DNA from: Candidatus Schekmanbacteria bacterium
Lineage (GTDB): Bacteria > Schekmanbacteria > GWA2-38-11 > J061
Direction of reading: 5' to 3'
DNA length: 64,000 bases
Assembly: GCA_016219965.1 (NCBI GenBank)
Contig: JACRJM010000003.1
Location: 194,299 to 258,298, forward strand
The position numbers and the translations under genes are program-made. Under the pieces are notes generated by a model. That model was not told where the DNA came from. It did no database searches and was given only the letters and a program-made list of their open reading frames with translations. Of this stretch, positions 11,983 to 35,750 are shown one piece after another (position 1 is the first letter of the stretch; every line of letters begins with the position of its first letter).

Positions 11983-11989
11983 AAATTCT

Positions 11990-12426: not shown

Positions 12427-12451
12427 GAACACAAATAAAAAAAGAGAGTTT

Positions 12452-15148: not shown

Positions 15149-15227
15149 ACTGACAAAGGCCTATGCACTTCTCGCAGAGCTCGACTCCTTCCTTCTTGAC
15201 AAACTTGGCCTCAGCCAAACGAAAACC

Positions 15228-16618: not shown

Positions 16619-16628
16619 TGAAAAGAAC

Positions 16629-16918: not shown

Positions 16919-16986
16919 GCAGCTTTACGTCTATCCCGGTTGTTCTATCTCGTATATCAGAGAAATTAAGATTGTGAAAAACCCAA

Positions 16987-17025
16987 TTGACAAATCGTGC
17001 CTGGTGTTGTAATTTTTATACAACA
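16987..17025 (+). promoter_or_regulatory. promoter with overlapping palindromic operator
   Basis: TTGACA at 16987-16992 and TAATTT at 17010-17015 form a sigma70-type promoter with a 17-base spacer. A perfect palindrome TGTTGTA-N7-TACAACA (17005-17025) covers the -10 element, a classic place for repression. It lies just ahead of the XRE gene, so autorepression by that protein is the likely meaning. The binding itself is inferred. Confidence 0.65.
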
Positions 17026-17038
17026 TGAGGGAGGAATT

Positions 17039-17410: not shown

Positions 17411-17413
17411 GAG

Positions 17414-18028
17414 ATGACTTACACTGAAGTCCCGCATTATACTTATAATGATATAAAGAAAAGAGCATATGAATTTTTAGCCACATACCACCCGTCTTTA
17501 GAAATTCCTGTCCCCATCGAAGAAATATTGGAATTCCAGTTTAACATCAACATTATCCCATTACCGGGTCTTCACGAAGGCTATGACATAGATGGATTCA
17601 TATCAAGTGATTTAACTACTATAAATATTGATGAATTTGTCTATCAATCTCGTCTAAGGAGATACAGGTTTACTTTAGCTCATGAAGCAGGTCATATCAT
17701 TCTCCATAAGAAGTTTTTTAAAGAAAATGTTTTTTCTTCAGTCAGAGAATGGAAAAAATTCACTCAGTCGATTGAGGACCGCGACTATTCTTTCTTGGAA
17801 TGGCATGCAAATACATTTGCCGGTTTAGTATTGGTATTTCCTTCAATATTATCAAAGCTGTTTTACGAATCAGTGGAGACAGCGAAAAATGCCGGGTTTT
17901 CCTTTAAGAATTCTTTGGATATAATCCAAGATTACATTGCGAGCGATCTGGCGAAAAAATTTTCTGTTTCATCAGAAGTCATAAGAAGACGCTTAGAGAA
18001 AGATAATTTGCTGGTAAAGTTAAAATAG
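17414..18028 (+). CDS. ImmA/IrrE-family metallopeptidase
   Basis: A 204-residue protein with the zinc motif AHEAGHIILH (H90-E91-x2-H94) and an N-terminal ImmA-type lead (PVPIEEILEFQFNINIIPLPG). Family members cleave or sequester cognate XRE repressors after DNA damage, or act in COG2856 toxin-antitoxin units. The third ligand would be in EWHANTFAG (E130s region), as in the family. It is 3 bases from the XRE gene, so the pair is one operon under the palindromic promoter. Confidence 0.9.
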   Translation: MTYTEVPHYTYNDIKKRAYEFLATYHPSLEIPVPIEEILEFQFNINIIPLPGLHEGYDIDGFISSDLTTINIDEFVYQSRLRRYRFTLAHEAGHIILHKKFFKENVFSSVREWKKFTQSIEDRDYSFLEWHANTFAGLVLVFPSILSKLFYESVETAKNAGFSFKNSLDIIQDYIASDLAKKFSVSSEVIRRRLEKDNLLVKLK

Positions 18029-18092
18029 TAAGTAATAACGACTGGCTTTTGCAGCCTTTGACAATTATAAAATTGAACTTTATAATTTCCAT

Positions 18093-18326
18093 CTGTATAT
18101 TCCAACACTTCTTTCTGCAACTCTTAAGAAATCTTTAAAACAGTTTCCTGCCGTCTTCGTCGGGGGGCTGCGGCAGGCTGGTAAAACGACTTTCCTCCTT
18201 TATGAGCTTCACGGCAAGGCTCATTATGTCAGCTTCGACACTCCGCCACCATGCAGAGCGGAGAAAAACAGGGATACTTGTATGTATTATTTGCAAAAAG
18301 TTGCGAAAAGTGTTAGTTTTTGCTAA
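18093..18326 (+). pseudogene. truncated DUF4143-type ATPase (N-terminal remnant)
   Basis: A frame from CTG reads YIPTLLSATLKKSLKQFPAV, then FVGGLRQAGKTTFLLYELHG and KAHYVSFDTP: the N-terminus and Walker A of AAA+ ATPases with a C-terminal DUF4143 domain. After about 55 residues homology ends and an unrelated tail runs to a stop at 18324. The usual ATG is CTG here and all later ATPase motifs are missing. It is an inactivated fragment caught between the ImmA and AbiEi genes, marking a recombination junction. Confidence 0.75.
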
Positions 18327-18349
18327 CAATCCATACAAATGGAGCAATT

Positions 18350-19129
18350 ATGCTTGCCGATTTCATTCTTAAACTATCAGCAAATGGGCGCTCTTCTTTT
18401 AGTTTCGATGATGTTAAGAAGCTGAAAAGCTCAACCCCAATGGCAATCAAAGCTGGGCTCCACCGTTTACAGAAAAAGGGGGAGATTGCAATGCCCTACC
18501 GGGGGTTTTATGTCATTGTTTCCCCGGAATACCGTTCGGCAGGCTGCATACCTCCCGAACAGTTCATACCTGATCTGATGGAGTATCTGGGTGAGGTTTA
18601 TTACACCGGTCTTCTGAGCGCTGGTGAGTATCATGGGGCTGCACATCACCGTCCCCAGGTTTTCCAGGTTATGGTTGCAAAACGTCGAAGGCCAATAAAA
18701 TGCGGCAAGATGCGGGTGGAATTCATCTTCCGGAAGAATGCAGCAAAGATCCCAACTCAGCAAAGAAATACTCGTGCAGGAATATTGAAAATAGCAACTC
18801 CTGAAGCAACTGCTCTTGATTTAATCGGCTATGTCAGGCATTGTGCCGGACTTGATAATGTGGCAACTGTTCTAACTGAACTTGCGGAAAAGATAGATGC
18901 TGATCACTTATTGAAAGTTGCTAAACTTTCACCAATTGCCTGGGTACAAAGGCTTGGTTATCTGCTTGATCTTATTGGAGAACAGAAAAAAGCTGAAGTG
19001 CTTGCACGCTACATCAAAACTAAACAACCAGTTCGTTCCCCTTTGATGCCAAACCTTAGTATAAAAGGGGCAAAATTGGATAGTAGGTGGAAGATATTTG
19101 TAAATGCTCAAGTGGAGTCTGAAGTTTGA
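18350..19129 (+). CDS. abiEi: AbiEi-type antitoxin
   Basis: A 259-residue protein with an N-terminal winged helix (FSFDDVKKLKSSTPMAIKAGLHRLQKKGEI) and the AbiEi_4-type C-terminal domain (GEVYYTGLLSAGEYHGAAH, TPEATALDLIGY). AbiEi represses and counters the AbiEii nucleotidyltransferase in type IV toxin-antitoxin/abortive infection systems. An upstream in-frame TTG (18320) is possible, but ATG 18350 has a GGAG site and gives a standard N-terminus. It overlaps abiEii by 4 bases. Confidence 0.88.
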   Translation: MLADFILKLSANGRSSFSFDDVKKLKSSTPMAIKAGLHRLQKKGEIAMPYRGFYVIVSPEYRSAGCIPPEQFIPDLMEYLGEVYYTGLLSAGEYHGAAHHRPQVFQVMVAKRRRPIKCGKMRVEFIFRKNAAKIPTQQRNTRAGILKIATPEATALDLIGYVRHCAGLDNVATVLTELAEKIDADHLLKVAKLSPIAWVQRLGYLLDLIGEQKKAEVLARYIKTKQPVRSPLMPNLSIKGAKLDSRWKIFVNAQVESEV

Positions 19130-19959
19130 TTTCTCTTGCCTATATTAAAGAATGGAAGGCGTACGCCCCGTGGCCGCAGAGCTATCAGGTTGAACAGGAC
19201 CTGATAATCAGCAGGGCGCTGGTGGAGATATTCAGCCATCCGATAGTGGCAAAAAACCTTGCCTTTCGGGGAGGAACAGCTCTTTATAAGTTGTATTTAA
19301 AACCTGCCAGATATTCTGAAGACATTGATCTAGTACAGGTCAATCGCGGCGCTATCGGGGGAGTCATTGATGCCTTGCAGGAAAATCTCAACCATTGGCT
19401 TGGCGTGCCAAAACGCAATTTCTCTGAAGGCAGAGTAACACTGATATATAAAGTGCAATCTGAAGAAGGACCACTGCTAAAGCTTAAGGTTGAAATCAAT
19501 TCACGGGAGCATTTTACGGTTCTGGGTTTTGAAAAACGAAAATTTGCTGTCAATTCAAAATGGTTTACAGGGAGCGCTGATATCCTGACCTATCAGCTTG
19601 AAGAACTTTTAGGTACAAAGCTTCGCGGTCTTTATCAACGTAAAAAAGGGCGCGACCTTTTTGACCTTTGGACAGCTCTAACAAATACAAATGCAAAACC
19701 GGAAAAAGTGATTGAATGTTTTCTGAACTACATGGAGCATGAAGGTAACAAGGTGACACGTGCGGAATTTGAAAAGAATCTTTACGAGAAGCTCTATGAC
19801 GCTCGCTTCATCGAAGATATAAGTCCGTTGCTTTACGCTGAAGGTGAATGGGATTTACATAAAGCAGGCGAGGTTGTTATGAATCAGTTGGTCACTCTTA
19901 TTCCCGGAGAGCCGTGGAAGCGGGAAAAAACAAGAAAAGAACAAAGAATTAAAAAATAA
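19126..19959 (+). CDS. abiEii: AbiEii-type nucleotidyltransferase toxin
   Basis: A 277-residue protein with the minimal nucleotidyltransferase signature FRGGTALYKLYL followed by YSEDIDLV (residues 48-70), and a helical C-terminal half (GTKLRGLYQRKKGRDLFDLW). AbiEii/MenT toxins transfer nucleotides to RNA targets such as tRNA 3' ends and stop growth during phage infection. The start is TTG in a TTGA overlap with abiEi, giving tight coupling to its antitoxin. Confidence 0.9.
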   Translation: MISLAYIKEWKAYAPWPQSYQVEQDLIISRALVEIFSHPIVAKNLAFRGGTALYKLYLKPARYSEDIDLVQVNRGAIGGVIDALQENLNHWLGVPKRNFSEGRVTLIYKVQSEEGPLLKLKVEINSREHFTVLGFEKRKFAVNSKWFTGSADILTYQLEELLGTKLRGLYQRKKGRDLFDLWTALTNTNAKPEKVIECFLNYMEHEGNKVTRAEFEKNLYEKLYDARFIEDISPLLYAEGEWDLHKAGEVVMNQLVTLIPGEPWKREKTRKEQRIKK

Positions 19960-19998
19960 TAAATATGTATTATTTTCCTTAAGTCTTCTTTTGAAATT

Positions 19999-20157
19999 TC
20001 AACAAACCTCAAGGCAAAGCTGAATTGCTTCTTTGGTTCTTTTCATAAGGGTATCAAGTGACTTTGCCTGAGTGTGACAGCCCTTAAGCTCGGGGACTTC
20101 TGCAATAAAGTATCCCCCTTCATCCTGCTCAATTATTACGGTAAACTTTTTATCCAT
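19999..20157 (-). CDS. orphan mini-HicB-like protein, copy 2
   Basis: A 52-residue protein carrying FTVIIEQDEGGYFIAEVPEL, then KGCHTQAKSLDTLMKRTKEA. It is nearly the same as copy 1 at 16742-16918, with the same orientation and spacing relative to the defence genes between them. It again lacks a HicA partner and a DNA-binding domain. Strong conservation of the coding frame between copies (many changes fall in third positions) suggests it is or was expressed. Confidence 0.75.
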   Translation of the reverse strand: MDKKFTVIIEQDEGGYFIAEVPELKGCHTQAKSLDTLMKRTKEAIQLCLEVC

Positions 20158-22402: not shown

Positions 22403-22753
22403 GTGAAACAAATAATTTTATACAGATGCCAGAATTGCGGCGGTGTGGAAAAAAAGATAGATCTTCCTTATGTACGCGAATTCGTGTTGAGCTGCTCGGG
22501 TCAGCTTGAAGCGATTCATATATTGCGGGCTTTTGAAGATGGAGAGCAGGGCGTTTGTATTGGTATCTGCGATACTACCCGATGCAAAACCCTCGAAGGA
22601 AGCGCGCGGGCATTGCGGAGAATAAAGCTTGCCGAGCATTTGCTTATGGAAGCTGGTATCGATAAAAAAAGGCTTATGACAATCCGGTATGAACCGGGCA
22701 GAGATATTAAAAAGGAATTATCTGATTTCCATGCACTTTTACAGGGAGCATGA
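22403..22753 (+). CDS. MvhD/FrhD-like hydrogenase iron-sulphur subunit
   Basis: A 116-residue protein that starts at GTG (AGGGA site upstream) and opens with QIILYRCQNCGG. The conserved cysteine cluster is GVCIGICDTTRCKTLEGSA (about 65-80), as in MvhD, which carries a [2Fe-2S] cluster and hands electrons between hydrogenase and HdrA in methanogens. Here it precedes MetV/MetF, the layout seen in some acetogens (MvhD-MetVF with Hdr). No hydrogenase or HdrA gene lies next to it, so its electron partner may be one of the ferredoxin/FMN proteins downstream. This is inference. Confidence 0.8.
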   Translation: MKQIILYRCQNCGGVEKKIDLPYVREFVLSCSGQLEAIHILRAFEDGEQGVCIGICDTTRCKTLEGSARALRRIKLAEHLLMEAGIDKKRLMTIRYEPGRDIKKELSDFHALLQGA

Positions 22754-22796
22754 TCAGGTAACCGGTCATATTAACTTATAAAAAGGAAACTCTAAC

Positions 22797-23462
22797 ATGA
22801 TAGTCGCACAAAGAAAGCCATTACAGGAAATCATCGAAAAACTGGAAAAACACAAAAAAGTCCTGATTGCCGGCTGTGCCACCTGCGTTGCTGAATGCCG
22901 TTCCGGCGGGCAAAAAGAAGTTGAACTGCTGGCAAGCCAGTTGCGGATCGCATTTGCTGATAAAAAGATTTCCATCAAAATTTCAGAATGCTGCATAGAA
23001 AGGCAATGCGAGCCGGAAATGATCGAAGAACACGCTCAAAAAGTATTGGAGCAGGATGTGGTGCTTTCTATAGCATGCGGTGTGGGAGTGCAGGAAATGT
23101 CCCTGCGGTTTGCGGACATCACCATACTTCCCGGATTGAACACCACATTTATGGGCACGCATGCCAAGCAAAACTCCTGGGAAGAGCGCTGCGGCGGTTG
23201 TGGTAACTGCATCCTCGATTTAACCATGGGTATTTGCCCGATAGCCCGCTGCAGCAAAAGCCTTCTCAATGGACCCTGCGGCGGCACCCATGACGGAAAA
23301 TGCGAAATATCAGAAGATACACCCTGTGCGTGGGCATTGATTGTAGAACGGCACAAGGAAAAGGGAAAACTGGAGCAGATGGAAAGCATAATCCCACCTA
23401 AAGACTGGTCAACGTCCAGAGACGGAGGACCAAGGGTGCTTGCGAGGGAGGAATTAGAATAA
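22797..23462 (+). CDS. metV: MetV-type methylene-THF reductase partner (zinc/Fe-S protein)
   Basis: A 221-residue protein. The N-terminal half has GCATCVAECRSGGQKE, ACGVGVQ and a cysteine-rich arrangement; the C-terminal half carries the methylene-tetrahydrofolate reductase C-terminal signature (SWEERCGGCGNCILDLT, CPIARCSKSLLNGPCGG, C..SEDTPCAW). In acetogens MetV binds MetF and supplies electrons to its flavin. It is 43 bases after the MvhD-like gene and its stop overlaps the metF start by one base (TAATG). Confidence 0.88.
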   Translation: MIVAQRKPLQEIIEKLEKHKKVLIAGCATCVAECRSGGQKEVELLASQLRIAFADKKISIKISECCIERQCEPEMIEEHAQKVLEQDVVLSIACGVGVQEMSLRFADITILPGLNTTFMGTHAKQNSWEERCGGCGNCILDLTMGICPIARCSKSLLNGPCGGTHDGKCEISEDTPCAWALIVERHKEKGKLEQMESIIPPKDWSTSRDGGPRVLAREELE

Positions 23463-24400
23463 TGAAATCAGGCAGCAGGCTGGAGAAAATACTGGAGCAG
23501 GGCAATTTTGCAGTCACCGCAGAATTGGGGCCGCCCATGAGCGCAGATGCAGAGGTTATTGCAAAAAAAGCGGCAATCCTCAATGGAACGGCAGATGCTT
23601 TTAATGTAACAGACAACCAGACAGCGGTTGTACGCATGTCATCGATAGCAGCCTCGGCAATCTGCGTAAAAGAGGGTATTGAACCTATCATGCAGATGGT
23701 TTGCAGGGACAGGAACCGGATTGCCATGCAGAGCGACATACTCGGGGCCGTGGCACTTGGAATCCGTAATTGCCTTTGTCTTTCGGGCGACCACCAGTCT
23801 TTTGGAAGAGCCGGAAAGCTTCTTGGACATCCCGGAGCTAAAAACGTGTACGATGTTGATTCCATCAACCTGATAAGCATCCTGCGTACCATGCGGGACG
23901 AACATAAACAGCAGGGAGGCGACCCGATTAAAAGCGATGTGCCGCTCTTTATAGGAGCAGCGTGGACACCTCTGGGAGATCCTGTTGATTTTAGGGTAAT
24001 CCGTCTTGGAAAGAAGATACAGGCAGGCGCAGATTTTGTGCAGACGCAGGGAATTTATGATGTTGAACGCTTTAGCGATGCAATGAAAAAAGCCAGGGAA
24101 AAAGGGTTTCATGAAAAGACCGCTATCCTTGCTGGTATCATAGTTCCTAAAAGCGCGGGTATGTTGAATTACATGAACACAAGTGTCGCCGGTGTTTCGG
24201 TGCCGGAAAAGATGATCCAGCGTATGAGCCAGGCTGAAAACCCAAAAGAGGAAGGCATAAAAATCACCATTGAATTGATAAATGAAATCCGCAAAATTGA
24301 GGGTGTGCGGGGCGTGCACATTCAGCCGATCGAATGGGAAACGGCCATGCAGGAAATTTCCGGCAAGGCGAACCTGCTTCCCCGCCCGGAGACAGCCTGA
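23462..24400 (+). CDS. metF: methylenetetrahydrofolate reductase
   Basis: A 312-residue TIM-barrel flavoprotein. It begins FAVTAELGPPMSADAEVIAKKA, has the catalytic-region stretch CRDRNRIAMQSD, the CLSGDHQ motif, and ends with RGVHIQPIEWE. It reduces 5,10-methylene-THF to 5-methyl-THF. Partnered with MetV and an MvhD-like protein, it is likely the acetogen-type, ferredoxin- or complex-linked enzyme rather than the NADH-dependent E. coli type. The stop overlaps the next ATG by one base. Confidence 0.92.
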   Translation: MKSGSRLEKILEQGNFAVTAELGPPMSADAEVIAKKAAILNGTADAFNVTDNQTAVVRMSSIAASAICVKEGIEPIMQMVCRDRNRIAMQSDILGAVALGIRNCLCLSGDHQSFGRAGKLLGHPGAKNVYDVDSINLISILRTMRDEHKQQGGDPIKSDVPLFIGAAWTPLGDPVDFRVIRLGKKIQAGADFVQTQGIYDVERFSDAMKKAREKGFHEKTAILAGIIVPKSAGMLNYMNTSVAGVSVPEKMIQRMSQAENPKEEGIKITIELINEIRKIEGVRGVHIQPIEWETAMQEISGKANLLPRPETA

Positions 24401-25779
24401 TGCCGGAAAAATATCATATCCATGCGGAACCTGCTGAACCGCGATATCAACCTGTATTCAAACTAAGTTCAACCGAAAGAGACCAGTGCTTAGGCTGTAA
24501 TGATTGCGCCAAGCGAAACTGCATTTACGACGTTTATAAAAAAAGGGAGTTTTTGTCATCTGAACTTGTGGATTCGTCCGGCAGTTTTTGCAAATCGTGC
24601 ATGCGCTGCGTTCAGGAATGCAAAAACAACATCCTGTCAAAATTATTGAATCCTGAGTATACCCAAATTGGAAACAGTTACTGGACCCCGGCCATACTTA
24701 CTTCTCTCTGGCAGCAGGCGCATGCAGGTAAAATTCCCGTTTCAGGAGCAGGATACGACGGCCCTTTTTCCGGCACAGGATTCGACGATATGTGGACTGA
24801 TATGTCCGAAATCGTCAGGCCCACCCGCGATGGCATACATGGCCGTGAATACATCAGCACATCCATTGATATTGGCACAAAATTAGACCGGTTGCATTTT
24901 AATGGTCAGGAACTGGCAGACGACCTTCCTCCTATGTTCTCTTTACCACTGCCGATTATTTTCGATGTGCCCAGGCAGGCTGGTACATGGCGCGGGGTGA
25001 AGCAGGCTGTGCAGCAGGCAGCCCGGAAACTTCAAACCCTCGCATTTTGCGACGACAGGGAGAGCACCGGTTCTCACATTATTCCACGCTACAGTATTAA
25101 CGAGAAAATAGAGCCTGATAATTCCAGCAAAATGATAGAAATATTTCTTGAATCCTGTGAAGGACAGTTAATTGATAAAGCGGAAAAGCTTGCCGGAGAG
25201 ATTTCTAAAAGCAAACCGGGGCTTGTAATATGCATTGGCCTTCCTATTTCAAAGAATACAGCTCAAACTGTTGTAAAGCTTGCAAAGAATAAAATAGGAA
25301 CTTTTCATCTTTATGCAAATCACAGCGGCAGAGGAACAGGCTCCGATTCAGATTATTTCATAAAGGAAATAGTCAGAGAAACGCACCGGGGGCTCCTTGC
25401 CGAATCGATAAGGGATTGCGTTACCATTCTGGCGGGAGGAGGAATTGCCATGGCCGAGCATGTGGCAAAACTGATCGCTTGCGGTGCAGATGGAGTTGTC
25501 GTTGACAATGCGCTGCTTGTAGCCCTGGAATGCAGGATGTGCCTTGAATGCCTGGAAGAAGAACCCTGCCACGTGCATATCGATGCGATAGATCCTCAAT
25601 GGGGAACCAAAAGAATCGTAAACCTTCTTGCATCGTGGCATTCACAACTGATTGAGGTTATGGGCGCTATGGGCCTTCGCGAAGTGCGAAGGTTAAGAGG
25701 GGAAACCGGCCGGGTAATGTTTTTCAGGGACCTGGAAGAAGAATGTTATGCACCGATATTCGGAAAGAGAGTATGGTAA
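24400..25779 (+). CDS. degenerate ferredoxin/glutamate-synthase-like protein
   Basis: A 459-residue protein with two N-terminal 4Fe-4S motifs (C30-C33-C36-C41 and C64-C67-C70-C74), a linker, and a C-terminal stretch homologous to the end of the glutamate synthase FMN barrel (ILAGGGIAMAEHVAKLIACGADGVV, then CRMCLECLEEEPC, a 3Fe-4S-like motif). It lacks the GGMSFGSIS and QGAKPG FMN/substrate motifs that its paralogue 25773-27254 keeps. It is probably an electron-carrying partner rather than an active synthase. The start overlaps metF by one base and the stop overlaps the next start. Confidence 0.75.
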   Translation: MPEKYHIHAEPAEPRYQPVFKLSSTERDQCLGCNDCAKRNCIYDVYKKREFLSSELVDSSGSFCKSCMRCVQECKNNILSKLLNPEYTQIGNSYWTPAILTSLWQQAHAGKIPVSGAGYDGPFSGTGFDDMWTDMSEIVRPTRDGIHGREYISTSIDIGTKLDRLHFNGQELADDLPPMFSLPLPIIFDVPRQAGTWRGVKQAVQQAARKLQTLAFCDDRESTGSHIIPRYSINEKIEPDNSSKMIEIFLESCEGQLIDKAEKLAGEISKSKPGLVICIGLPISKNTAQTVVKLAKNKIGTFHLYANHSGRGTGSDSDYFIKEIVRETHRGLLAESIRDCVTILAGGGIAMAEHVAKLIACGADGVVVDNALLVALECRMCLECLEEEPCHVHIDAIDPQWGTKRIVNLLASWHSQLIEVMGAMGLREVRRLRGETGRVMFFRDLEEECYAPIFGKRVW

Positions 25780-27254
25780 ACATCATAAAAACCCCATCCC
25801 GTTTTAAAAACCGCATCGGCAAATTCGCCGTTCACCGGTCCGAGCGCTGCACAAGCTGCGGGAAATGTGTAACAGTATGTCCTTACAGCGTATTTGTAAA
25901 AGCAGGGGATAAAATGCTGCGCCCTAAATCCTACTTGTGCTCAGGTTTAAAGTGCGCGGAGTCGGAAAAAGGCTGTGTAAAAAACTGCCCTGCAGGCGCC
26001 CTTTCAGTTGCAGTCAATCCAAATTATAAAGTATTGGGTGATTACCGTTGGACGCCAGACCTTATTGTCTCCACCTGGTACCAGGCTGAAACAGGCGAAT
26101 TACCCTATATGGAAATTGAGTCCGACAGCGGGAATTCCGGCGGCGGATTGGATAGGATAAGGATAAAAGCGCGGCCGAAGGAATCAATAGATCCTAAAAA
26201 AGTCGATATGCGGATCAACCTTAATAAAAGAAACGACGGCCGGCCAAGCCTCATTATAGATATGCCCATTTACGGGGGCGGAATGTCATTCGGTTCCATA
26301 AGCGAAAGCACCATGATCGGCCGCGCCAAAAACGCAGCCGCATGGAACACCCTTACCTGCACAGGCGAAGGAGGGTATCCCGAGGCCCTTCACCCGTACG
26401 ATAATCATGTTATTACACAGGTTGCAACCGGGCTTTTTGGGGTAAGAGAAGAAACCATCCAGCGGGTACGCATGGTGGAATTCAAATATGCGCAGGGTGC
26501 AAAACCGGGTCTCGGCGGACACCTCCTTGGAGACAAAGTCACCGAAGCGGTCGCAAGAATGCGCGAGTCCGTCAAAGGAAACCCGCTTTTTTCTCCTTTT
26601 CCTTTTCATTCGGTCTATTCAATTGAAGACCACAAGAAACATGTGGACTGGATCAAGCACATAAACCCAAAAACTCTGGTTTCCACCAAAGTATCAACGC
26701 CTACAGATGTAGAAATGGTAGCCGTGGGCAGTTATTATGCCGGAGCGCATGTCATTCATATAGACGGAAGCTATGGCGGCACCGGTGCAGCACCGGAAAT
26801 TGCTAAAAAAAATATCGCCATGCCTATAGATTATGCCATAAATAAAACTCACCGTTTTCTGACGCAGGAAGGCATAAGAGATAAAATAACGCTTATCGCC
26901 TCAGGAGGATTAAGAACCGCACATGATATTTTCAAGGCAATCGCCCTGGGTGCAGACGGTGTTGTAATAGGCACTTCAGAAATGGTCGCACTGGAATGCC
27001 TGCGCTGTAAAAACTGTGAGAGCGGACGCGGATGTGCGCGCGGGATTGCAACCACAGACCCATTATTAGGCGTTATGTTCAGCGTTGATTGGGCTTTTCA
27101 GCGGATGTATAATTTATATGCTTCCTTCGATAAGCAGTTGAGGAAACTTGTCGCTGCGGCAGGCTGCAGCTCAGTTACAGAGGTTGTCGGGCGGACAGAG
27201 CTGCTGCTGCACCTTGACTATGAAAACAATGAAAACAAGGATAAAGATGGATAA
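25773..27254 (+). CDS. FMN-binding glutamate synthase core with ferredoxin domain
   Basis: A 493-residue protein. N-terminal cysteine motifs (CTSCGKCVTVCPY, CSGLKCAESEKGCVKNC) form ferredoxin-like clusters. The barrel shows IYGGGMSFGSISE, CTGEGGYPE, QGAKPGLGGH, GSYGGTGAAP and the 3Fe-4S motif CLRCKNCESGRGC. It matches archaeal-type GltB/GlxD, which condenses ammonia with 2-oxoglutarate to glutamate, or methylamine in N-methylglutamate synthase. ATG 25773 overlaps the preceding stop; an earlier in-frame start (25743) is possible. It pairs with the fused 27247-29850 protein. Confidence 0.88.
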   Translation: MVNIIKTPSRFKNRIGKFAVHRSERCTSCGKCVTVCPYSVFVKAGDKMLRPKSYLCSGLKCAESEKGCVKNCPAGALSVAVNPNYKVLGDYRWTPDLIVSTWYQAETGELPYMEIESDSGNSGGGLDRIRIKARPKESIDPKKVDMRINLNKRNDGRPSLIIDMPIYGGGMSFGSISESTMIGRAKNAAAWNTLTCTGEGGYPEALHPYDNHVITQVATGLFGVREETIQRVRMVEFKYAQGAKPGLGGHLLGDKVTEAVARMRESVKGNPLFSPFPFHSVYSIEDHKKHVDWIKHINPKTLVSTKVSTPTDVEMVAVGSYYAGAHVIHIDGSYGGTGAAPEIAKKNIAMPIDYAINKTHRFLTQEGIRDKITLIASGGLRTAHDIFKAIALGADGVVIGTSEMVALECLRCKNCESGRGCARGIATTDPLLGVMFSVDWAFQRMYNLYASFDKQLRKLVAAAGCSSVTEVVGRTELLLHLDYENNENKDKDG

Positions 27255-29850
27255 TTTTTCTGATACCATACAAAGGTCCCGTGCCCTGCTTCCAGCCCAT
27301 GCACATAATAATGCGGAAGAAAAACCGGCGCAGGAAGGCGGGTGCGGAGTCGTAGGCTTTGCCGCAAACGTTAAAATAAGCGGTCGTCATATCTTTGAGC
27401 CTTCCTGCCAGATGCATAACAGAGGCAATGGCAAAGGCGGGGGTATTGCCGCCGCCGGACTTGATGCCCGGTATTTTGGAATTTCACAAGAGATGCTGGA
27501 TTCGTGTTATCTGCTTAATGTTGCCTACATGGATAGCGGCATTGTAAAGGAGCTTGAAAGCAGTTTTATTAACCCCCATTTTGATATTCATCACATTCAT
27601 CAAATGCCAACAGTGAAAGATTTTAACGCCCTGGGTCTGGAGACAAAACCCCCGGATGTAAAACAATATTTCGTCCGTGTAAAAAAAGACGTTTTAAGCA
27701 AGTTCTCAAAACCCTTTGCAAAGGCAGCTCATCGCGACATTGAAGATGAATTCGTTTGGCAGAATTCATTTAAAATAAACCAGAAATACTACGCTTCGCT
27801 TGGAGATAAAAAGGCGTTCGTTCTTTCGCATGCCAGGAATTTAATGATCATGAAAATAGTGGGCTATGCAGAAAACGTGGTAAAGTATTACCAGCTCGAA
27901 GATATGCAGGCACATATATGGATCGCACACCAGCGCTACCCGACCAAGGGGCGGGTCTGGCATCCAGGAGGAGCGCATCCTTTTATTGGAATGAACGAGG
28001 CACTTGTACATAACGGTGATTTTGCAAACTATCATTCCGTGTCCGAATACCTTAAAGAACGTAACATGATACCCCAGTTTTTAACGGATACCGAGGTTTC
28101 GGTCATGATATTTGACCTGTGGAACCGCGTTTATAAATATCCAATGGAATACATTATTGAAGCGCTTGCTCCCACCACTGAGCTTGATTTTGACCGGCTT
28201 CCAAAAGAAAAACAAAAAATTTACGCAGCCATTCAGGCCATGCACATTCACGCCTCCCCGGATGGTCCGTGGTTTTTTATAATAGCCAGAAGCCAGCCCG
28301 ATGCAAACGAATACCAGCTTTTGGGAATAACAGATACATCCATGCTGAGGCCCCAGGTGTTCGCCCTTTCCGAAGGAAAGGTGCAAATAGGTTTATGCGC
28401 TTCCGAAAAAAAGGCTATTGACGCGGCTTTGGGAAGTATTTCAAAAGAAGACAGCAGATTCAGACCCATTGCCGACAAATATTGGAACGCCCGGGGCGGC
28501 AGTCACGCAGACGGCGGAGCGTTTGTTTTTAAAGTAAAACCAAACGGCGCAGAAGGTGAATTGCGCTGTTTTAATAAATTCGGGCATGAGGTAAAAGCTG
28601 ATCCCGAAAAAATTGCGTGTAATTTTTCTGAAAATTTTGCCAGCGCCGGCACCATTGCCGAAGGCGATGAAATAAAACGGCTTTTAGAAAATGGCAGCGC
28701 GCCGGAGCTTTTTACATTAATTTCCGGCAAAATATCTGAATGCGATTATATGAAGCTGCGCTGGTATATAGACCATATCGTTTCTCACGGAAGCGGCAGA
28801 AACACTGCTTCTGCCATTGAGACGCTCACCCTGCTCAATGATATGAAATATGATAATGGACATAAAAAGAGAAGCTCTGTTTTGCAGATAATCCGTTCCG
28901 GCATCGATTCTTTACTGCACAATACACCTTCTATTGCTGAAAAAAAATCCGGCAATTCTGAATATTGCAGAATCACCTATGCAACCAAAGATCTGTTAAG
29001 GCCTCCTGCAGCAGGCGAGAAAATCCTTGTTGTAGATGCCGCCGAGTTTGAGCCTGAAGGGGAAAACTGCGATTCCACACTTGCGGTAAAATCATATACC
29101 TTAGGGTGGAAGCATTTTGTGGTGTTTAACCTTAAAGGGCAAAGGTTTCATGGCTGCGGATTCGGTCCCGGCTCCCATGAAATCCGCATGGATCTCTACG
29201 GCAGTTCAGGGGACTACGCGGGCAGCGGCATGGACGGATGCCAATTATATATCCATGGCGATGCCCAGGACCAGCTTGGGCAGATACTTAAAGACGGAAA
29301 TTTGGTCGTCTACGGAAGCGTGGGACAAACATTCATGTACGGGGCAAAAGGCGGAAAGGTTTTTATTATGGGAAATGCTGCAGGCCGCCCATTGATTAAT
29401 GCCGTAGGACGTCCCAGGGTTGTGATTAACGGAACCTGTCTTGATTTTCTCGCGGAATCATTTATGGCGGGCGATGCCCTAAACGGCGGGGGTTTTGCTA
29501 TTGTCAATGGAATTGAGTTTGACCAAAAAGGCGCTTTACGTGAATTATCGTTGCCCTATCCCGGTTCAAACCTTTTTTCTCTGGCTTCCGGCGGGGCGCT
29601 TTATATCCGTGATCCGAAAAATACAATTGTTGAGCAGCAGTTAAACGGCGGAACAATCGTTAAATTGAAAAAAGCCGATTGGGACGTTATTGCGCCATAT
29701 CTGGATGAGAATGAAGAATTATTCAAAATAAAAGTTTCGGATTTACTTACCGTAGATGGCAAAAGGCTGCCTCCGGAAGACGTTTACAGGAAAATAATGC
29801 CCATCCAGGCCGAGGTCCTTGCCAGTGAAATGGCTGATGAAGAAGAATAG
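27247..29850 (+). CDS. fused class II glutaminase - GXGXG protein (GlxB-GlxC fusion)
   Basis: An 867-residue fusion. The N-terminal half is a class II glutamine amidotransferase: C33 in GGCGVVGF, RYPTKG, VHNGDFANY and LTDTEVSV match the catalytic layout of glutamate synthase glutaminases, with a 32-residue propeptide. The C-terminal part (about 635-760) is the GXGXG beta-helix (YGSSGDYAGSGMDG, GDAQDQLGQ, YGAKGGKVFIMG). In cluster B these two domains are separate genes. It supplies ammonia to the FMN core. A middle region (about 430-620) between the domains is not assigned. An AAGGA site precedes ATG 27247, 8 bases inside the previous gene. Confidence 0.88.
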   Translation: MDNFSDTIQRSRALLPAHAHNNAEEKPAQEGGCGVVGFAANVKISGRHIFEPSCQMHNRGNGKGGGIAAAGLDARYFGISQEMLDSCYLLNVAYMDSGIVKELESSFINPHFDIHHIHQMPTVKDFNALGLETKPPDVKQYFVRVKKDVLSKFSKPFAKAAHRDIEDEFVWQNSFKINQKYYASLGDKKAFVLSHARNLMIMKIVGYAENVVKYYQLEDMQAHIWIAHQRYPTKGRVWHPGGAHPFIGMNEALVHNGDFANYHSVSEYLKERNMIPQFLTDTEVSVMIFDLWNRVYKYPMEYIIEALAPTTELDFDRLPKEKQKIYAAIQAMHIHASPDGPWFFIIARSQPDANEYQLLGITDTSMLRPQVFALSEGKVQIGLCASEKKAIDAALGSISKEDSRFRPIADKYWNARGGSHADGGAFVFKVKPNGAEGELRCFNKFGHEVKADPEKIACNFSENFASAGTIAEGDEIKRLLENGSAPELFTLISGKISECDYMKLRWYIDHIVSHGSGRNTASAIETLTLLNDMKYDNGHKKRSSVLQIIRSGIDSLLHNTPSIAEKKSGNSEYCRITYATKDLLRPPAAGEKILVVDAAEFEPEGENCDSTLAVKSYTLGWKHFVVFNLKGQRFHGCGFGPGSHEIRMDLYGSSGDYAGSGMDGCQLYIHGDAQDQLGQILKDGNLVVYGSVGQTFMYGAKGGKVFIMGNAAGRPLINAVGRPRVVINGTCLDFLAESFMAGDALNGGGFAIVNGIEFDQKGALRELSLPYPGSNLFSLASGGALYIRDPKNTIVEQQLNGGTIVKLKKADWDVIAPYLDENEELFKIKVSDLLTVDGKRLPPEDVYRKIMPIQAEVLASEMADEEE

Positions 29851-29874: not shown

Positions 29875-30918
29875 TCACTTCACCCCGGTTACATAACCGA
29901 GGTTGCGGAACTTGCCGGACAGCTTTGTCATTGTCTTGAAGCTGATATTCTTGAAGCCTGCATCTTTTAACCACTTAGTCATCTCGCCGCGGGAGCGCGA
30001 GTCGCCCCCTTCAGTTTCAATCATGAGGGCAATCGAGAAAAGCACTGGGAAGAGAGGTCCTGTGCGGTCATCTTTTACTATAGATTCTTTTAATATTATA
30101 GCACCGCCTTTGGGGAGATAATCATAAGCCTTGTTTACCATCTTGCGGCAATTCTCCTCGTTGTAGCCGTCGAGGATGCCGGAGATTAAAATAAGATCTG
30201 CACCCTGCGGGAATGGGTCTTTAAGTATATTGCCGGGATGGGTTTTCACCCGGCTATTCATCTTGTAATTTGCTATTGTCCCTTCTGCAACCTTGCATAC
30301 AGGAGGAAAATCAAAGATAGTTGCCTTGAGCTTTGGGTGTTTCTTTGCAGCCATTACAGAGATGATCCCTGAGCCTCCGCCCAAATCAAGGAGGTGTTTG
30401 TATTTTGAGAAGTTAAATGAACTCGCAAGCTCTTCTGCAGGCTTAACGCTGTAGGCATGCTGTGCCGCCATTGCAGCTTTTGCTATTTCAGGATCAATTG
30501 ATATATTTCCTATGGTGTCTCCTTTTTCTCCGAAAACACGCCCATAGGAATCTTTTTTTATCGCCTCTCCAAGCTCGCCCCATCTGTCATAGAGAATCTT
30601 GTCATAGGCGCGCATCAGACCGCCAAGATAATCAGGTTTTCCTTTTACAAGATATGCAAGCGATACAGGTGTGTTGAAATACTTTCCGTTTTTATATTTG
30701 AGAAGATTTATGGCAGTCAAACCATTAAGCAACCTTGTGGCAGACCGTACAGGGAGATAGCATTTCCCGGCAACTTCGGCAGGCGTGAGCTTTCCCTTGC
30801 CAATTAAGCTGAACACATCAAATTCCACACCCACAAAAAGTATTTTTGAAAGATGAAAGGCGGTCGCTATCTCAATTATCTTGTCAGAATTAAGCCCGCC
30901 AACTTTCCTGGGTGGCAT
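29875..30918 (-). CDS. O-methyltransferase (dimerisation plus SAM-binding)
   Basis: A 347-residue protein with an N-terminal winged-helix/dimerisation domain (GVEFDVFSLIGKGKLTPAEVA) and a C-terminal class I SAM domain with motif I (LLDLGGGSGIISV, about 170-182). It resembles caffeate/hydroxyneurosporene-type O-methyltransferases (Methyltransf_2). The acceptor cannot be predicted. It is 10 bases after the GXGXG gene of cluster B and likely in that operon, and it meets cluster A tail to tail. Remnants of its paralogues' last codons lie at 20945 and 22222. Confidence 0.85.
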   Translation of the reverse strand: MPPRKVGGLNSDKIIEIATAFHLSKILFVGVEFDVFSLIGKGKLTPAEVAGKCYLPVRSATRLLNGLTAINLLKYKNGKYFNTPVSLAYLVKGKPDYLGGLMRAYDKILYDRWGELGEAIKKDSYGRVFGEKGDTIGNISIDPEIAKAAMAAQHAYSVKPAEELASSFNFSKYKHLLDLGGGSGIISVMAAKKHPKLKATIFDFPPVCKVAEGTIANYKMNSRVKTHPGNILKDPFPQGADLILISGILDGYNEENCRKMVNKAYDYLPKGGAIILKESIVKDDRTGPLFPVLFSIALMIETEGGDSRSRGEMTKWLKDAGFKNISFKTMTKLSGKFRNLGYVTGVK

Positions 30919-30928
30919 CTGTTTCCTT

Positions 30929-31744
30929 TTAATAGGCGTAGAGCCTTCCGTAAGGGCGATGGCTTACTGGTATAATTTTAAGAAAAGGTTTGGACATGAT
31001 ATTCTCATAATCAAGATCCAGATCTGCGGCATACTCTTTCAGTAGTTTCTCAAGTTCTTTCATGTCAGCATCTGTCATGTCAACAATGCCGACCTCTTTT
31101 CCAAGTTTCTTCTTATTTACTTCGCCGCGAACATAGATGATCCCGCCATGCATTCCTGTCCCGAGATAATCTCCAACTATTGGTCTTTCATCTTCTTCTT
31201 CAAGACCAAGAAGTACCAGTATTCCTCCTGCCATATATTCGCCGAAGAAATCCCCTGCATTGCCGCCAGCCACTATATATGACATTCTCTCCTTGTATGC
31301 TTTCATGTGGATTCCTACCCTGTAGCCCACATCACCCTTGATGAATATCTTGCCGCCCCTCATTCCGTAGCCGATTACATCGCTCGCCTGACCATGCACA
31401 ACTATCTTGCCAAGACTCATCGTGTTGCCCACTGCATCCTGCACATTGTCATTTACTATTATGGTTGGACCGCTCATGAAAGCGCCAAGGTCGTTTCCGG
31501 GGACACCATTTATTATTATGGTAGCTTCCTTTTCTATGGCATCGCCGATATAGCGCTGTCCGTTTACATTATCAAGCTCAACAATATTATAATCCTTATT
31601 TAAAATGGCATCACGCACCATCTCATTAAGTTCTTTGTAATAAATATCATGGGCGTCAATTACTAATTTTTTTTCGTCCATTTTAGCGGGATTTCCCCTC
31701 ACGGTTAGTTTCTTGTTAAGCCGAGTAGTTAAGTTTCCTTCCAT
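30929..31744 (-). CDS. GXGXG subunit of archaeal-type glutamate synthase (GlxC-like)
   Basis: A 271-residue right-handed beta-helix protein with repeated glycine motifs (GAFMSGPTIIVNDNVQD, YGMRGGKIFIKGDVGYRVG, EYMAGGILVLLG, GTGMHGGIIYVRG). In the archaeal-type synthases (and MgsB of N-methylglutamate synthase) this is a separate subunit, as here. It follows the FMN gene by 25 bases. The ATG at 31744 gives a normal N-terminus. Confidence 0.9.
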   Translation of the reverse strand: MEGNLTTRLNKKLTVRGNPAKMDEKKLVIDAHDIYYKELNEMVRDAILNKDYNIVELDNVNGQRYIGDAIEKEATIIINGVPGNDLGAFMSGPTIIVNDNVQDAVGNTMSLGKIVVHGQASDVIGYGMRGGKIFIKGDVGYRVGIHMKAYKERMSYIVAGGNAGDFFGEYMAGGILVLLGLEEEDERPIVGDYLGTGMHGGIIYVRGEVNKKKLGKEVGIVDMTDADMKELEKLLKEYAADLDLDYENIMSKPFLKIIPVSHRPYGRLYAY

Positions 31745-31769
31745 TTTACACTATACTCCTATTTACTTA

Positions 31770-33275
31770 TTATTTCCCTGCCGCTTTTACGGCAAGTATA
31801 TCAAGGGTCTGCGAATCAAGCCCTATGCCCCTCAACCTTTCCCTGCTTCCACGCAGAGATTCAATTGCGTTAAGCCCCAGGCTTCCAAGCACTTCTTTTA
31901 TCTCAAGACTCCATGCCCTCAAAAGATTTATCAGTCTCTCTGCAGCTATTTCAGGGTCAAGCCTTCTGGTAAGCTCTGGTCTCTGCGTTGCAATACCCCA
32001 TGCGCATCTTCCCATATGGCATGTCTGGCAGACGCGGCATCCAATGGCTATGAGCGCCCCTGTTCCTATGGCCACAGCATCAGCGCCGAGGGCAATTGCT
32101 TTAATCGCATCGGCAGCCGAGCGTATGCTTCCTGCCGCGATAAGCGAAGCATGGTTTCTTATACCTTCCTGTCTAAGCCTGTCGTCAACTGAAGCCAGGG
32201 CAAGCTCAAGGGGTATTCCAACATGGTCCCTTACTATCCTTGGCGCAGCACCGGTGCCGCCCCTGAAACCGTCAAGATAGACGATATCTGCTCCTGCCCT
32301 TACTACGCCACTTGCGATGGCAGCAATATTATGGACTGTCGCTATCTTTACAGAAACCGGCTTGTAGCCTGTTGCTTCCTTGATTGCGAATATAAGCTGT
32401 CTTAAATCCTCTATGGAATATATGTCGTGGTGCGGGGCAGGCGAAAGCGCATCGGTCCCCATCGGAATCATACGGGTCTTTGAGATATCTAGACCTACCT
32501 TTTCACCCGGCAGATGGCCGCCTATTCCGGGCTTTGCACCCTGACCGATTTTTATGTCAACCGCAATACCCCTTTTGAGGTAATCGGCATGGACGCCAAA
32601 CCTTCCGGATGCGCACTGCGTTATTGTATATTGTCCGTAGTCATAAAGTTCTTCATGGAGCCCGCCTTCACCGGTATGCATGACTGTCCCCATTTCTTTT
32701 GCAGCCATTGCCATTGCCTTATGGGAGTTAAGACTTATAGCTCCATAGGACATAGGCGCAAAGACGATTGGGATTTCAAGTTTTAAATTCTTTGGCGGTT
32801 TCTCTTTGAGCTTAAGTTTTCCGTCAGGTGTTTCAACAAACTCAAGTGAGTCAGGTTTTTTCCCAAGATAGGTCCTGAGTTCCATGGGCTCCCTTAACGG
32901 GTCGATTGACGGGTTAGTGACCTGGCAGGCATCGAGAACAAGATGGTCAAATATGATCTCATAGGGGAGATCGTTGCCCATCCCTGTTAAAAGTATGGAG
33001 CCTGTTTCAGCCTGCTTCCATATATCGAGGCGGTGCCTGTCTGTCCAGTTGGCACTTCCCTTGAAATCAGTCGGGTTTTTCCTTACGGTTATTACCTGTT
33101 CCGGGCAGTATACGACACACCTGTGGCAGGCAACGCACTTGAAATTATCAGGCACGACTTTGTTTTCAAAGCTTAATGCTTCATAACTGCAGTTCATAAC
33201 GCAGCGTTTGCATCTGCGGCAGTTTGTATGCTCTATGTCAACTACGAATTCCGGTATGAGGTAGCTTCTTCTCAT
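31770..33275 (-). CDS. FMN-binding glutamate synthase core (GlxD-like)
   Basis: A 501-residue protein with two N-terminal 4Fe-4S motifs (CRRCKRCVMNC, CVACHRCVVYC), then the synthase barrel with FAPMSYGAISLNSHKA, HTGEGGLHEE, GQGAKPGIGGH, DGFRGGTGAAP and the 3Fe-4S motif CRVCQTCHMGRC. All catalytic motifs appear intact. It fits the glutamate synthase or N-methylglutamate synthase catalytic subunit. Its paralogue in cluster A (25773-27254) diverges mostly outside these motifs, indicating ancient duplication or separate acquisition. Confidence 0.92.
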   Translation of the reverse strand: MRRSYLIPEFVVDIEHTNCRRCKRCVMNCSYEALSFENKVVPDNFKCVACHRCVVYCPEQVITVRKNPTDFKGSANWTDRHRLDIWKQAETGSILLTGMGNDLPYEIIFDHLVLDACQVTNPSIDPLREPMELRTYLGKKPDSLEFVETPDGKLKLKEKPPKNLKLEIPIVFAPMSYGAISLNSHKAMAMAAKEMGTVMHTGEGGLHEELYDYGQYTITQCASGRFGVHADYLKRGIAVDIKIGQGAKPGIGGHLPGEKVGLDISKTRMIPMGTDALSPAPHHDIYSIEDLRQLIFAIKEATGYKPVSVKIATVHNIAAIASGVVRAGADIVYLDGFRGGTGAAPRIVRDHVGIPLELALASVDDRLRQEGIRNHASLIAAGSIRSAADAIKAIALGADAVAIGTGALIAIGCRVCQTCHMGRCAWGIATQRPELTRRLDPEIAAERLINLLRAWSLEIKEVLGSLGLNAIESLRGSRERLRGIGLDSQTLDILAVKAAGK

Positions 33276-33294
33276 TATTAATCTTCTCTTTCAG

Positions 33295-34389
33295 CTAAAT
33301 GTTCTTATTGTCAAGGTTCACGATCACAGGCTCACCTGCCCTTGGATACCAGACTTTTGCAGGTTTCGCACATATCTCCCTTATCGAGGATTCCTCAGAC
33401 GCCATGTAAACCCTGTCGTCCTTTTCAGCTACCACGAGGGGGCGAAGCTTTATCCTGTCGCTCAGCCCTATTAGACCATTGCTGTGTCCAAAAAGTATGG
33501 AGAAAGGCCCGTTAAGAAGGGCGCTTCCGTAAACCATTCTTATCGATGTGAGGGCTTCCTTTTCATCTTCAGGCATATCATCTATATCCTTCCAGAATGG
33601 AGCGGCAACAGCTTTGCAGGCTGTCTTAAAGGGCATCCCATGCCTTCTTATCATTAGGTCAAAAATATAGGCTATAACTTCGGTGTCAGTTAAGAGTGTG
33701 CATCTGTAGCCAAACATCTCGAGGTATCTCTTGTTTATCCCGTAGGATGAAATCTCGCCATTATGGACTATTGACCAGTCAAGAAGAGTGAATGGATGAG
33801 CGCCTCCCCACCATCCCGGAGTATTTGTCGGGAACCTGTTGTGAGCTGTCCATATATATCCCTTGTAATCCTCTATCATGTAGAATTCCGCTATTTCATC
33901 AGGAAATCCTACACCCTTGAATGCGCCCATGTTCTTTCCGCTTGAGAAAACATATGCTCCTTCAATCTCAGAGTTTACCTTCATTACAGTTCTTACTACA
34001 AAATCATCACCCTCAACATCTGCAAATTCCTTGTCCGGGCGTCCGCTCTTGGGTTTCACAAAGTAGCGGTAGAGCATTGGATGATAAACTATGTACTTTG
34101 TTTTCTGATGAGGGATACGTTCATGCTTTGCAACTTCATAGTTTGATTCAAGGAATTCCTCGGTGAGTTCCCTTGCAGTTCCATGGTCAAACATTATATG
34201 CAGAGCATAGTAATCTTTGTAGTCAGGATATATCCCGTAGGCGGCAAACCCTGCTCCAAGACCGTTCCCCCTGTCCCTCATGGGGCAGATTGATTTTATT
34301 ATCACGCTTCCCGGAACAAGCTCTCCAGACTTGCTTATCAGTCCTGTAAGTCCGCATCCTGAGATGTCTTTCTGGTAATTATGGTTCAT
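33295..34389 (-). CDS. class II glutamine amidotransferase subunit (GlxB-like)
   Basis: A 364-residue protein. The catalytic cysteine is probably C12 (DISGCGLTGLI) after an 11-residue propeptide; AHNRFPTNTPG, SIVHNGEIS and LLTDTEVIAY match the class II fold. It produces ammonia for the FMN core 19 bases downstream. Its start overlaps the stop of the HdrBC-like gene by 4 bases, so all four proteins are translated from one mRNA. Confidence 0.9.
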   Translation of the reverse strand: MNHNYQKDISGCGLTGLISKSGELVPGSVIIKSICPMRDRGNGLGAGFAAYGIYPDYKDYYALHIMFDHGTARELTEEFLESNYEVAKHERIPHQKTKYIVYHPMLYRYFVKPKSGRPDKEFADVEGDDFVVRTVMKVNSEIEGAYVFSSGKNMGAFKGVGFPDEIAEFYMIEDYKGYIWTAHNRFPTNTPGWWGGAHPFTLLDWSIVHNGEISSYGINKRYLEMFGYRCTLLTDTEVIAYIFDLMIRRHGMPFKTACKAVAAPFWKDIDDMPEDEKEALTSIRMVYGSALLNGPFSILFGHSNGLIGLSDRIKLRPLVVAEKDDRVYMASEESSIREICAKPAKVWYPRAGEPVIVNLDNKNI

Positions 34390-35750
34390 AAAACACCTTC
34401 CTGTTTTTCATCTTTTGTCTTCTTTATTGAATCTATCATCTCTTTCCACTGGGTAAACCCGCTCTCAGGCGGATTAGGGAGATTAAGTTTCTTTCTCTGA
34501 GCCATGGACGGCTCTCCGATGCGGCTTGTTTTTGTGAACATCTCAAGCCCCTTCTCTACAGAAGCAGGCCTTATACCCTGTTCTCCCGCCATTTTCTTTA
34601 GTGTCGTGAAGACCTTTTCCATTCCGAATCCCTGCGGACAGAGTTCGGTGCAAGTGTGGCATTCAAGGCATTGCCATATCCTGTGATCATTAACTGCATC
34701 ATCAAGCTTACCTGCAATTACTTTTTCCATAACCGCTTTTGGGTCATAATCTTCCAGAATCCTTGCAGACGGGCAGTCATCAAGACATGCGCCGCATTCA
34801 TAGCACGCCTTCAATGCATCAAGGTCAAAATGCTGCGCTGATTTTCCTGTGCTCTCATCAACCTCGTTCCATCTCTCGAAGAATCTTTCAGTCTTCACCC
34901 TGTGTGATTCTATTCCAAGGTCCTTTGGCTCTATGCCAAGGGTAAGCCCTATGAGCTCGGAGATATAGAAAATCGGTATGCTGAAATCCTCTCCATCCCT
35001 TTGCATCATGAACTGCTGGTTGTCGAGCTGTTTAAAGCAATTGGGACAGGCAACAGCCATGGCATCTACCTCAAGGCTGCGCGTTTCAATAAGTTTCTGC
35101 CTTGTCACGTCAGTTCCTTTTTCTATGTCACCTATATTTGTAAGCTCTCCGCCGCAGCAGAGCATCTTGGCATGATAGTCTATATTTGTACCTCCAAGGG
35201 CTCTTATCAATGAATCAAATTTCTTTGGCACGATCGGGTCATCAAAATCTATGGCGCTGCTCGGTCTTGTCATGTGACAGCCGGGGTGGACTGCGATCTT
35301 AAGTCCGTTCAAACTTCTTTTAATCTGAGATTTGATAACGTCTGCGCCAATTACGTCATGGAACATTTCAACTATATGTTTAACCTCTACTCCGCCCCTG
35401 TATGATAAGTTGACTGAGTTTAATCCATCATTTACTTTTGAAAGAAGAGCCGGGTCGTGGTCGAGATTTTCCTGCACGGTTTTCAATGTGCTGAAACATC
35501 CGTTGCATGCCTGTATAAGCGTAAGGTTTTCCCCTGCGCCTTCTCTTGCCACTGCAAGGTTGCGGGCTGCCGTAAGTGTCCAGACATCTTTGCTCATGTT
35601 GCCCACAAGGGCTTTTTCAGGACAGCAGGTAAAGCCGTTTACATCGCGTATCCTGAAATCAAGCGCATCAAAAACCTTGCGCAAAGATTTTTCTATAAAG
35701 GGAAATCTCGCAGGTATCTGACACCCCCAGAACATTACATTAACAGACAT
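34386..35750 (-). CDS. HdrB-HdrC-like fusion (heterodisulfide reductase-type)
   Basis: A 454-residue fusion with HdrB first. Two CCG-domain cysteine sets (MFWGCQIP..TCCPEK..QACNGCF and HPGCHM..LCCGGE..CPNCF) would hold noncubane [4Fe-4S] clusters. A C-terminal HdrC-like domain follows with two ferredoxin motifs (CYECGACLDDCPS, CLECHTCTELCPQ). In methanogens HdrB reduces a heterodisulfide with electrons passed by HdrC. Here the fusion heads a glutamate synthase operon, with no HdrA, so it probably passes electrons to or from that complex. This is inference. Confidence 0.85.
   Translation of the reverse strand: MSVNVMFWGCQIPARFPFIEKSLRKVFDALDFRIRDVNGFTCCPEKALVGNMSKDVWTLTAARNLAVAREGAGENLTLIQACNGCFSTLKTVQENLDHDPALLSKVNDGLNSVNLSYRGGVEVKHIVEMFHDVIGADVIKSQIKRSLNGLKIAVHPGCHMTRPSSAIDFDDPIVPKKFDSLIRALGGTNIDYHAKMLCCGGELTNIGDIEKGTDVTRQKLIETRSLEVDAMAVACPNCFKQLDNQQFMMQRDGEDFSIPIFYISELIGLTLGIEPKDLGIESHRVKTERFFERWNEVDESTGKSAQHFDLDALKACYECGACLDDCPSARILEDYDPKAVMEKVIAGKLDDAVNDHRIWQCLECHTCTELCPQGFGMEKVFTTLKKMAGEQGIRPASVEKGLEMFTKTSRIGEPSMAQRKKLNLPNPPESGFTQWKEMIDSIKKTKDEKQEGVL

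Follow-up and report, generated by a model that had tools for sequence, protein, structure and literature searches.

We propose that six genes of a Candidatus Schekmanbacteria bacterium encode one complex, in which a methylene-tetrahydrofolate (methylene-THF) reductase of the MetVF type and an MvhD-like iron-sulfur protein would be wired to an unusually built glutamate synthase (GOGAT), a reading that we hold with somewhat better than even confidence. Because the pairing is found again in numerous unrelated anaerobic bacteria, we think it probable that a single electron-transfer complex joins nitrogen assimilation to one-carbon metabolism. That all six products form a single assembly, that electrons pass between MetF and the synthase subunit, and what that subunit acts on, we infer from sequence.

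Glutamate synthase is a main point of nitrogen entry into cell material, and the known enzymes use NADH, NADPH or ferredoxin, with F420-dependent forms proposed (PMC3448663). A GOGAT joined to MetVF would represent a new class of electron donor for this enzyme, widespread in anaerobes. It would also be a fifth arrangement of methylene-THF reductase, four having been described so far (PMC8760232), and a direct link between one-carbon and nitrogen metabolism. The component parts are already known; the combined assembly we could not find described in the literature searched, which lay mostly outside the subscription journals.

The operon and its products

The window, by which we mean the whole stretch of 64,000 nucleotides analysed (contig JACRJM010000003.1, positions 194,299 to 258,298), contains the tightly overlapping operon at 22403-29850 on the plus strand, in the order MvhD-MetV-MetF-P4-P5-P6, as established by domain searches and by start refinement, in which gene starts were picked from start codons and upstream sequence. 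Specifically, an MvhD-like [2Fe-2S] subunit of the FlpD family (22403-22753, GTG start; PF02662, 57.5 bits against a cut-off of 22.3) is followed by MetV, the iron-sulfur subunit of a MetVF-type methylene-THF reductase (22797-23462; PF12225, the MetV C-terminal domain, 121 bits), and by MetF, its flavin subunit (23462-24400; PF02219, MTHFR, 122 bits), which keeps the folate and flavin residues. These precede P4, a Fe-S-bearing degenerate paralogue of the FMN barrel of GltS (24400-25779, ATG start; PF01645, 44 bits, C-terminal part only); P5, an FMN synthase subunit that is GltB2/GlxD-like and has an N-terminal ferredoxin domain (25773-27254, ATG; PF01645, 305 bits); and P6, a class-II glutaminase domain (GATase_6) fused to a GXGXG beta-helix (27247-29850, ATG; PF01493, 51 bits). 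From MetV onward to P6 the successive junctions overlap by 1, 1, 7 and 8 bases. A sequence-only reading of this DNA had named the same six genes and domains, and both they and its fused glutaminase-GXGXG protein, the catalytic cysteine of which is intact, are borne out. No NCBIfam model reaches its cut-off on P4, P5 or P6, and if the GOGAT reading is true these genes, which lack a named NCBIfam family at cut-off, would gain a function.

In the proposed mechanism P6 would hydrolyse glutamine and the ammonia would pass to P5, where FMN would reduce the imine formed with 2-oxoglutarate to give glutamate. P4, an iron-sulfur protein lacking FMN and lying beside P5, would relay electrons, MvhD and MetV would link the MetF flavin to P4, and the MetVF methylene-THF reductase would serve as the electron-exchange module of the GOGAT.

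The sequences of the trio are consistent with these roles. In P6 the catalytic Cys34, which follows an EGG motif, and the HQRYPT, HNGD and TDTEV motifs are conserved in 9/9 P6 proteins, and hhalign gives 88.7% for the glutaminase and 83.7% for the GXGXG domain. Between these two domains lies a linker (window 28540-29040, residues about 430-600) that resembled none of the GltS domains when profiles were compared, and locus L032 lacks it. P5 keeps the FMN loops (hhalign to the GltS FMN domain, E 2e-34), and in a PDB alignment its C409, C415 and C421 fall on the cysteines of GltS, Cys412 being extra. Loop 4 of the P5 family reads SPFPFHSVYSIEDH against SPxPHHDIYSIEDL in GltS, that is, FHSVYS[IV]EDH where GltS and GlxD have HHDIYSIEDL, with the ED portion retained. 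The altered loop may mean that the substrate or the tunnel differs, the difference being one of sequence motif and no proof of other chemistry.

Family alignment shows that P4 has a pair of four-Cys ferredoxin motifs, in most cases the barrel cysteines too, and a near-invariant WTDMSEIVRPTRDGIHGREYIST block, and that it has lost the FMN motifs and the loop 4 (ammonia-loop) motif. We considered whether P4 is a plain GltS central domain and think this less likely, as profile comparison favours the FMN barrel (hhalign 96.9%, E 1.5e-10) and matches the central domain weakly (25.8%). P4 and P5 form a single fused gene in 17 loci, and this natural fusion is good evidence that the two work together. 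For a predicted model of one fused protein (pLDDT 80, pTM 0.83), the seven top PDB matches are all GltS, aligned across 920-983 columns with an rmsd of 13-14 A, so the two halves appear to be arranged unlike GltS, or their placement is unsure. The truncated central barrel of GltS perhaps arose by duplication of its FMN barrel (PMC8097209), and P4 may have come about independently in a similar way.

GltS/GltB, in its bacterial NADPH-dependent and plant-type ferredoxin-dependent forms, shares with P4-P5-P6 the PurF-type glutaminase, the FMN barrel and the GXGXG helix, and it has a second, truncated barrel, possibly FMN-barrel-derived (PMC8097209), to which P4 may be comparable. Unlike GltS, the trio is split and permuted, with the glutaminase fused to GXGXG and each barrel encoded by a gene of its own; ferredoxin clusters are present in P4, the loop 4 motif differs, and the operon has no GltD and a MetVF/MvhD electron module. 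The archaeal-type split GltB1-B2-B3 (GlxBCD) comes closer in P5, which is GlxD-like (32-35% identity) and has the N-terminal ferredoxin domain in common. However, the GlxBCD operon that the window also carries has no counterpart of P4, whereas P6 fuses glutaminase and GXGXG, and the donor of P4-P5-P6 systems is MvhD/MetVF, HdrABC or GlcD/F-like. A donor subunit that is swapped between lineages is likewise known for GlxBCD, for example in the putative F420-dependent FGltS of methanogens (PMC3448663). The type IV methylene-THF reductase of Moorella, HdrABC-MvhD-MetVF (PMC8760232), holds MvhD, MetV and MetF together as the window does, but the window operon has the GOGAT trio in place of HdrABC. 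HdrA, HdrB and HdrC were not found between 22403 and 29850, a nearby HdrB-HdrC fusion belonging to the convergent Glx operon. The nearest precedents are the F420-dependent glutamate synthases with swapped donors (PMC3448663) and the HdrABC-MvhD-MetVF reductase.

Recurrence, gene order and history

P4 orthologues occur in 9 others of 290 sampled genomes (almost all of different genera, spread over the domain) at 38-50% identity, surrounded by the same gene set or portions of it. A profile scan of genome contigs with the P6 alignment gave at least 562 confirmed P6 relatives. By their record titles, the best 80 of these come from Thermodesulfobacteriota, Chloroflexota, Planctomycetota, Myxococcota, Acidobacteriota, Armatimonadota, Poribacteria, Latescibacterota, Spirochaetales and ANME-1 archaea; they are the relatives closest to the window P6, so that their mix of contexts is biased toward the window's kind. 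Genomes assigned to Desulfobacula and Desulfosarcina are among the hits. In the recurring clusters P5 and P6 are each kept at 53-68% identity, and MetV shares 42-55% identity with that of the window. The operon order is far beyond chance because it recurs in unrelated genomes, and a chance or assembly-specific cluster is ruled out by recurrence across genomes and phyla. Neither of the outcomes that the earlier reading would have taken as refutation, confinement to one assembly or break-up in relatives, was seen.

The order P4-P5-P6 is constant at every locus where it can be read, and it is the electron-input module that varies: MvhD alone, MvhD-MetVF, HdrABC, a GlcD/GlcF-like dehydrogenase or NfnAB. 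MetV/MetF is present in 42/58 loci with readable context, standing upstream of the trio as MvhD-MetV-MetF in 29 (MetV only in one), directly downstream of it as MetV-MetF in 3, and in an Hdr-linked form, MvhD-MetF-P4-P5-P6-HdrC-HdrB-HdrA-MvhD-MetV or part thereof, in 10. The earlier reading took glutamate synthases to be ordinarily separate from the enzymes of folate metabolism, but in this family MetVF is the commonest sampled neighbour. The remaining 16 of the 58 have no MetVF, and in 7 of those 16 a GlcD-like FAD protein that ends in a GlcF-like Fe-S part is encoded immediately ahead of P4, the family names resting on three of those seven loci. Such genes were seen in ANME-1 and Dehalococcoidia (L072:5105-6946, L104:2509-4353, L066, L086, L103, L109), and some of the sets sit inside glnK-glnA operons. 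In genome G225 (L032:5437-16737) the trio has neither ferredoxin domains nor MetVF; after it come NfnAB-like genes and the alpha subunit of a 2-oxoacid:ferredoxin oxidoreductase, and a malate dehydrogenase lies upstream.

The Hdr-linked group (among others L029, L049, L057, L059, L062, L067, L080, L082 and L096) belongs to Myxococcota, Planctomycetota, Acidobacteriota and Armatimonadota, and has HdrC, HdrB and HdrA between P6 and MvhD-MetV, the HdrA being very large and in part NfnB-like (L082:13697-18637). These subunits would suit a flavin-based electron-bifurcating assembly, a kind of complex that the earlier reading had named; in it the exergonic GOGAT step would drive ferredoxin reduction with MetF as second acceptor. 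We regard this as quite improbable: HdrA is confined to the Hdr-linked group, the window-type operon encodes neither HdrA nor an Nfn, Etf, NuoF-type or other known bifurcating flavin subunit, and most Hdr-linked MetFs have lost the folate Asp.

That loss stands against the conservation seen elsewhere. The window MetF keeps E21, D110 and Q196, which correspond to the folate residues E28, D120 and Q183 of E. coli, together with the flavin motif RDRNR. None of the 28 upstream-type or 3 downstream-type MetFs has lost any of these three folate residues, whereas the Hdr-linked MetFs have lost the Asp in 7/9 and retain RDRNR. Folate chemistry is therefore not the common denominator; electron exchange is the likely role common to all linked MetFs, and in the window type folate chemistry is probably active as well. 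The Hdr-linked sequences would fit MetF being a mere flavin relay, or an NAD(P)H-reading GOGAT subunit, with no folate chemistry, but this is improbable given the intact residues of the 31/31 upstream- and downstream-type proteins and the absence of a conserved NADH site from MetVF-type MetF (PMC8760232).

A MetF tree with 56 rows places the linked MetFs in several clades rather than one. The Hdr-linked proteins form a single clade (97/97), the downstream-type proteins their own clade (100/99) within a different MetF family, and the upstream-type proteins require at least two changes, two origins being forced by starred branches; MetF presence mapped on the P5 tree needs six changes. The trees thus point to recruitment of MetF to the trio at least three separate times. 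Within the upstream (main) group the MetF and P5 distances correlate (r = 0.78, with 0/2000 permutations as high). Shared descent adds to this correlation, and since the trees mix phyla they suggest joint transfer of MetF and P5. The window P5 adjoins the downstream group yet its MetF belongs to the upstream group, which suggests that modules were exchanged. The earlier proposal that MetF is coupled to a glutamate-synthase-like complex thus gains support, at the level of sequence, from the cross-phylum order, the repeated recruitment, the correlated distances and the P4-P5 fusion.

P4 orthologues were absent from the three same-phylum genomes searched, so the window copy looks acquired. Base composition (operon 47%, window 42%) is weak evidence of this, because a native-looking Glx operon likewise stands at 46%. 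A plasmid search for nearer annotated relatives gave just 31-34% GltB homologues among the matches listed. Upstream, window 9300-20000 resembles a defence or mobile region on the basis of translations alone, with genes that look like type I restriction-modification, IrrE and AbiE genes.

Predicted glutamate synthase activity

Our preferred reading of the trio is that of a glutamate synthase, a predicted activity that is suggested by its nitrogen context and by a MetVF-linked genome in which no further GOGAT or glutamate dehydrogenase was found. Its neighbours include AmtB (12 loci), glutamine synthetase (12), P-II (11), CarA (11), CarB (8) and HisF/HisA (7), with the order glnK-glnA-GlcD/F-like-P4-P5-P6 in ANME-1 and Dehalococcoidia and glnA-MvhD-P4-P5-P6 at other loci. 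In genome G043, which is 95% complete, MetVF lies upstream of a fused P4-P5 and then P6, with glnA, amtB and glnK upstream in the same stretch, and a search of this genome found neither a second GOGAT candidate nor any GDH-family protein. In at least 14/25 genomes, no Glu_synthase protein apart from P5 scores above 150 bits. For the upstream-MetVF group the GOGAT inference leans mainly on this sole-GOGAT argument and on homology, because nitrogen genes are close in just 3/29 of its loci (L025, L089 and L097).

The same contexts bear on a different possibility, that the operon performs new chemistry joining ammonia and a one-carbon unit, for example as an N-methylglutamate-synthase-type enzyme (a type that the earlier reading had named) using methylene- or methyl-THF. 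A glutaminase, a synthase barrel and MetF do share one operon, and the P5 loop 4 is unlike that of all GltS. The N-methylglutamate synthase MgsABC consists of the same three domain kinds, from which the trio departs by different fusions and by the additional P4. However, the trio also occurs in glnA/amtB/glnK operons without MetVF, and neither mgd (N-methylglutamate dehydrogenase) nor other methylamine-pathway genes are found among the annotated recurrent neighbours (GlnA, AmtB, GlnK, CarAB, HisF, Hdr), so that we consider new chemistry very improbable indeed.

The window genome also encodes a GlxBCD set and three proteins of the GDH family, so the predicted GOGAT is not its only glutamate route. 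The convergent operon at window 29875-35750, on the minus strand, encodes an O-methyltransferase, a GXGXG protein, a GlxD-type GltB2, a GlxB-type glutaminase and an HdrB-HdrC fusion, and this second split GOGAT, without the methyltransferase, is conserved in genomes of the same taxonomic order (L033, L034).

Proposed electron exchange between MetVF and the synthase

If the six proteins are one complex, the direction of electron flow can be considered, and here we incline, tentatively and at somewhat short of even confidence, to flow from MetF into GOGAT. This direction is favoured by the alternative occupants of the slot, which are dehydrogenases (GlcD/GlcF-like, NfnAB), and by the potentials. 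The 2-oxoglutarate/glutamate couple lies at about -120 mV. As the methyl-THF/methylene-THF couple stands at -200 mV (PMC8760232), methyl-THF could drive the amination of 2-oxoglutarate and could not reduce NAD+. Each searched genome with a linked MetF has at least one further MetF, which leaves the linked copy available for a special function.

Alternatively, one low-potential donor could supply MetVF and GOGAT alike, which we judge only slightly less probable than flow from MetF. Its more explicit form is the main rival to flow from MetF: GOGAT would be reduced by ferredoxin, or by HdrABC through MvhD, while MetVF shares the donor, the point of electron entry or just expression, and no electrons flow between folate and glutamate. 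Acetogen MetVF enzymes (type II) have no NADH site and use reduced ferredoxin in vitro (PMC8760232), both P4 and P5 have ferredoxin domains, MvhD-P4-P5-P6 is also found without MetVF, and searches found neither acetyl-CoA synthase nor FTHFS in the window genome, all of which would fit a ferredoxin donor. Against it, the co-variation of MetF with P5 and the several recruitments are not expected from simple co-expression, and a second MetF is kept elsewhere in the genomes. On this evidence we judge the ferredoxin account rather unlikely.

Within the preferred reading, in which electrons pass from MetF into GOGAT, the most specific version has methyl-THF (about -200 mV) as the direct donor through MetF, returning methylene-THF and spending electrons too weak for NAD+ reduction on ammonia assimilation, with other lineages using other mid-potential donors, such as 2-hydroxy acids, in the same slot. 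We offer this as a speculation that is unlikely in its full form, and it is weaker for the window genome because of the two missing enzymes. Acetyl-CoA synthase is also absent from six others of the 25 genomes searched, and on that ground we rejected a tie to the Wood-Ljungdahl pathway as the explanation for MetVF. The GlcD/GlcF-like loci possibly represent a 2-hydroxy-acid-driven GOGAT, and if 2-hydroxyglutarate were the donor such an enzyme would also gain its 2-oxoglutarate.

A further family of about 530 amino acids, with a weak match to the Glu_synthase barrel, was seen at L024:5016-6599 and in G043:C33, G288:C77 and G293:C104, and in genome G027 such a protein lies just upstream of MvhD.
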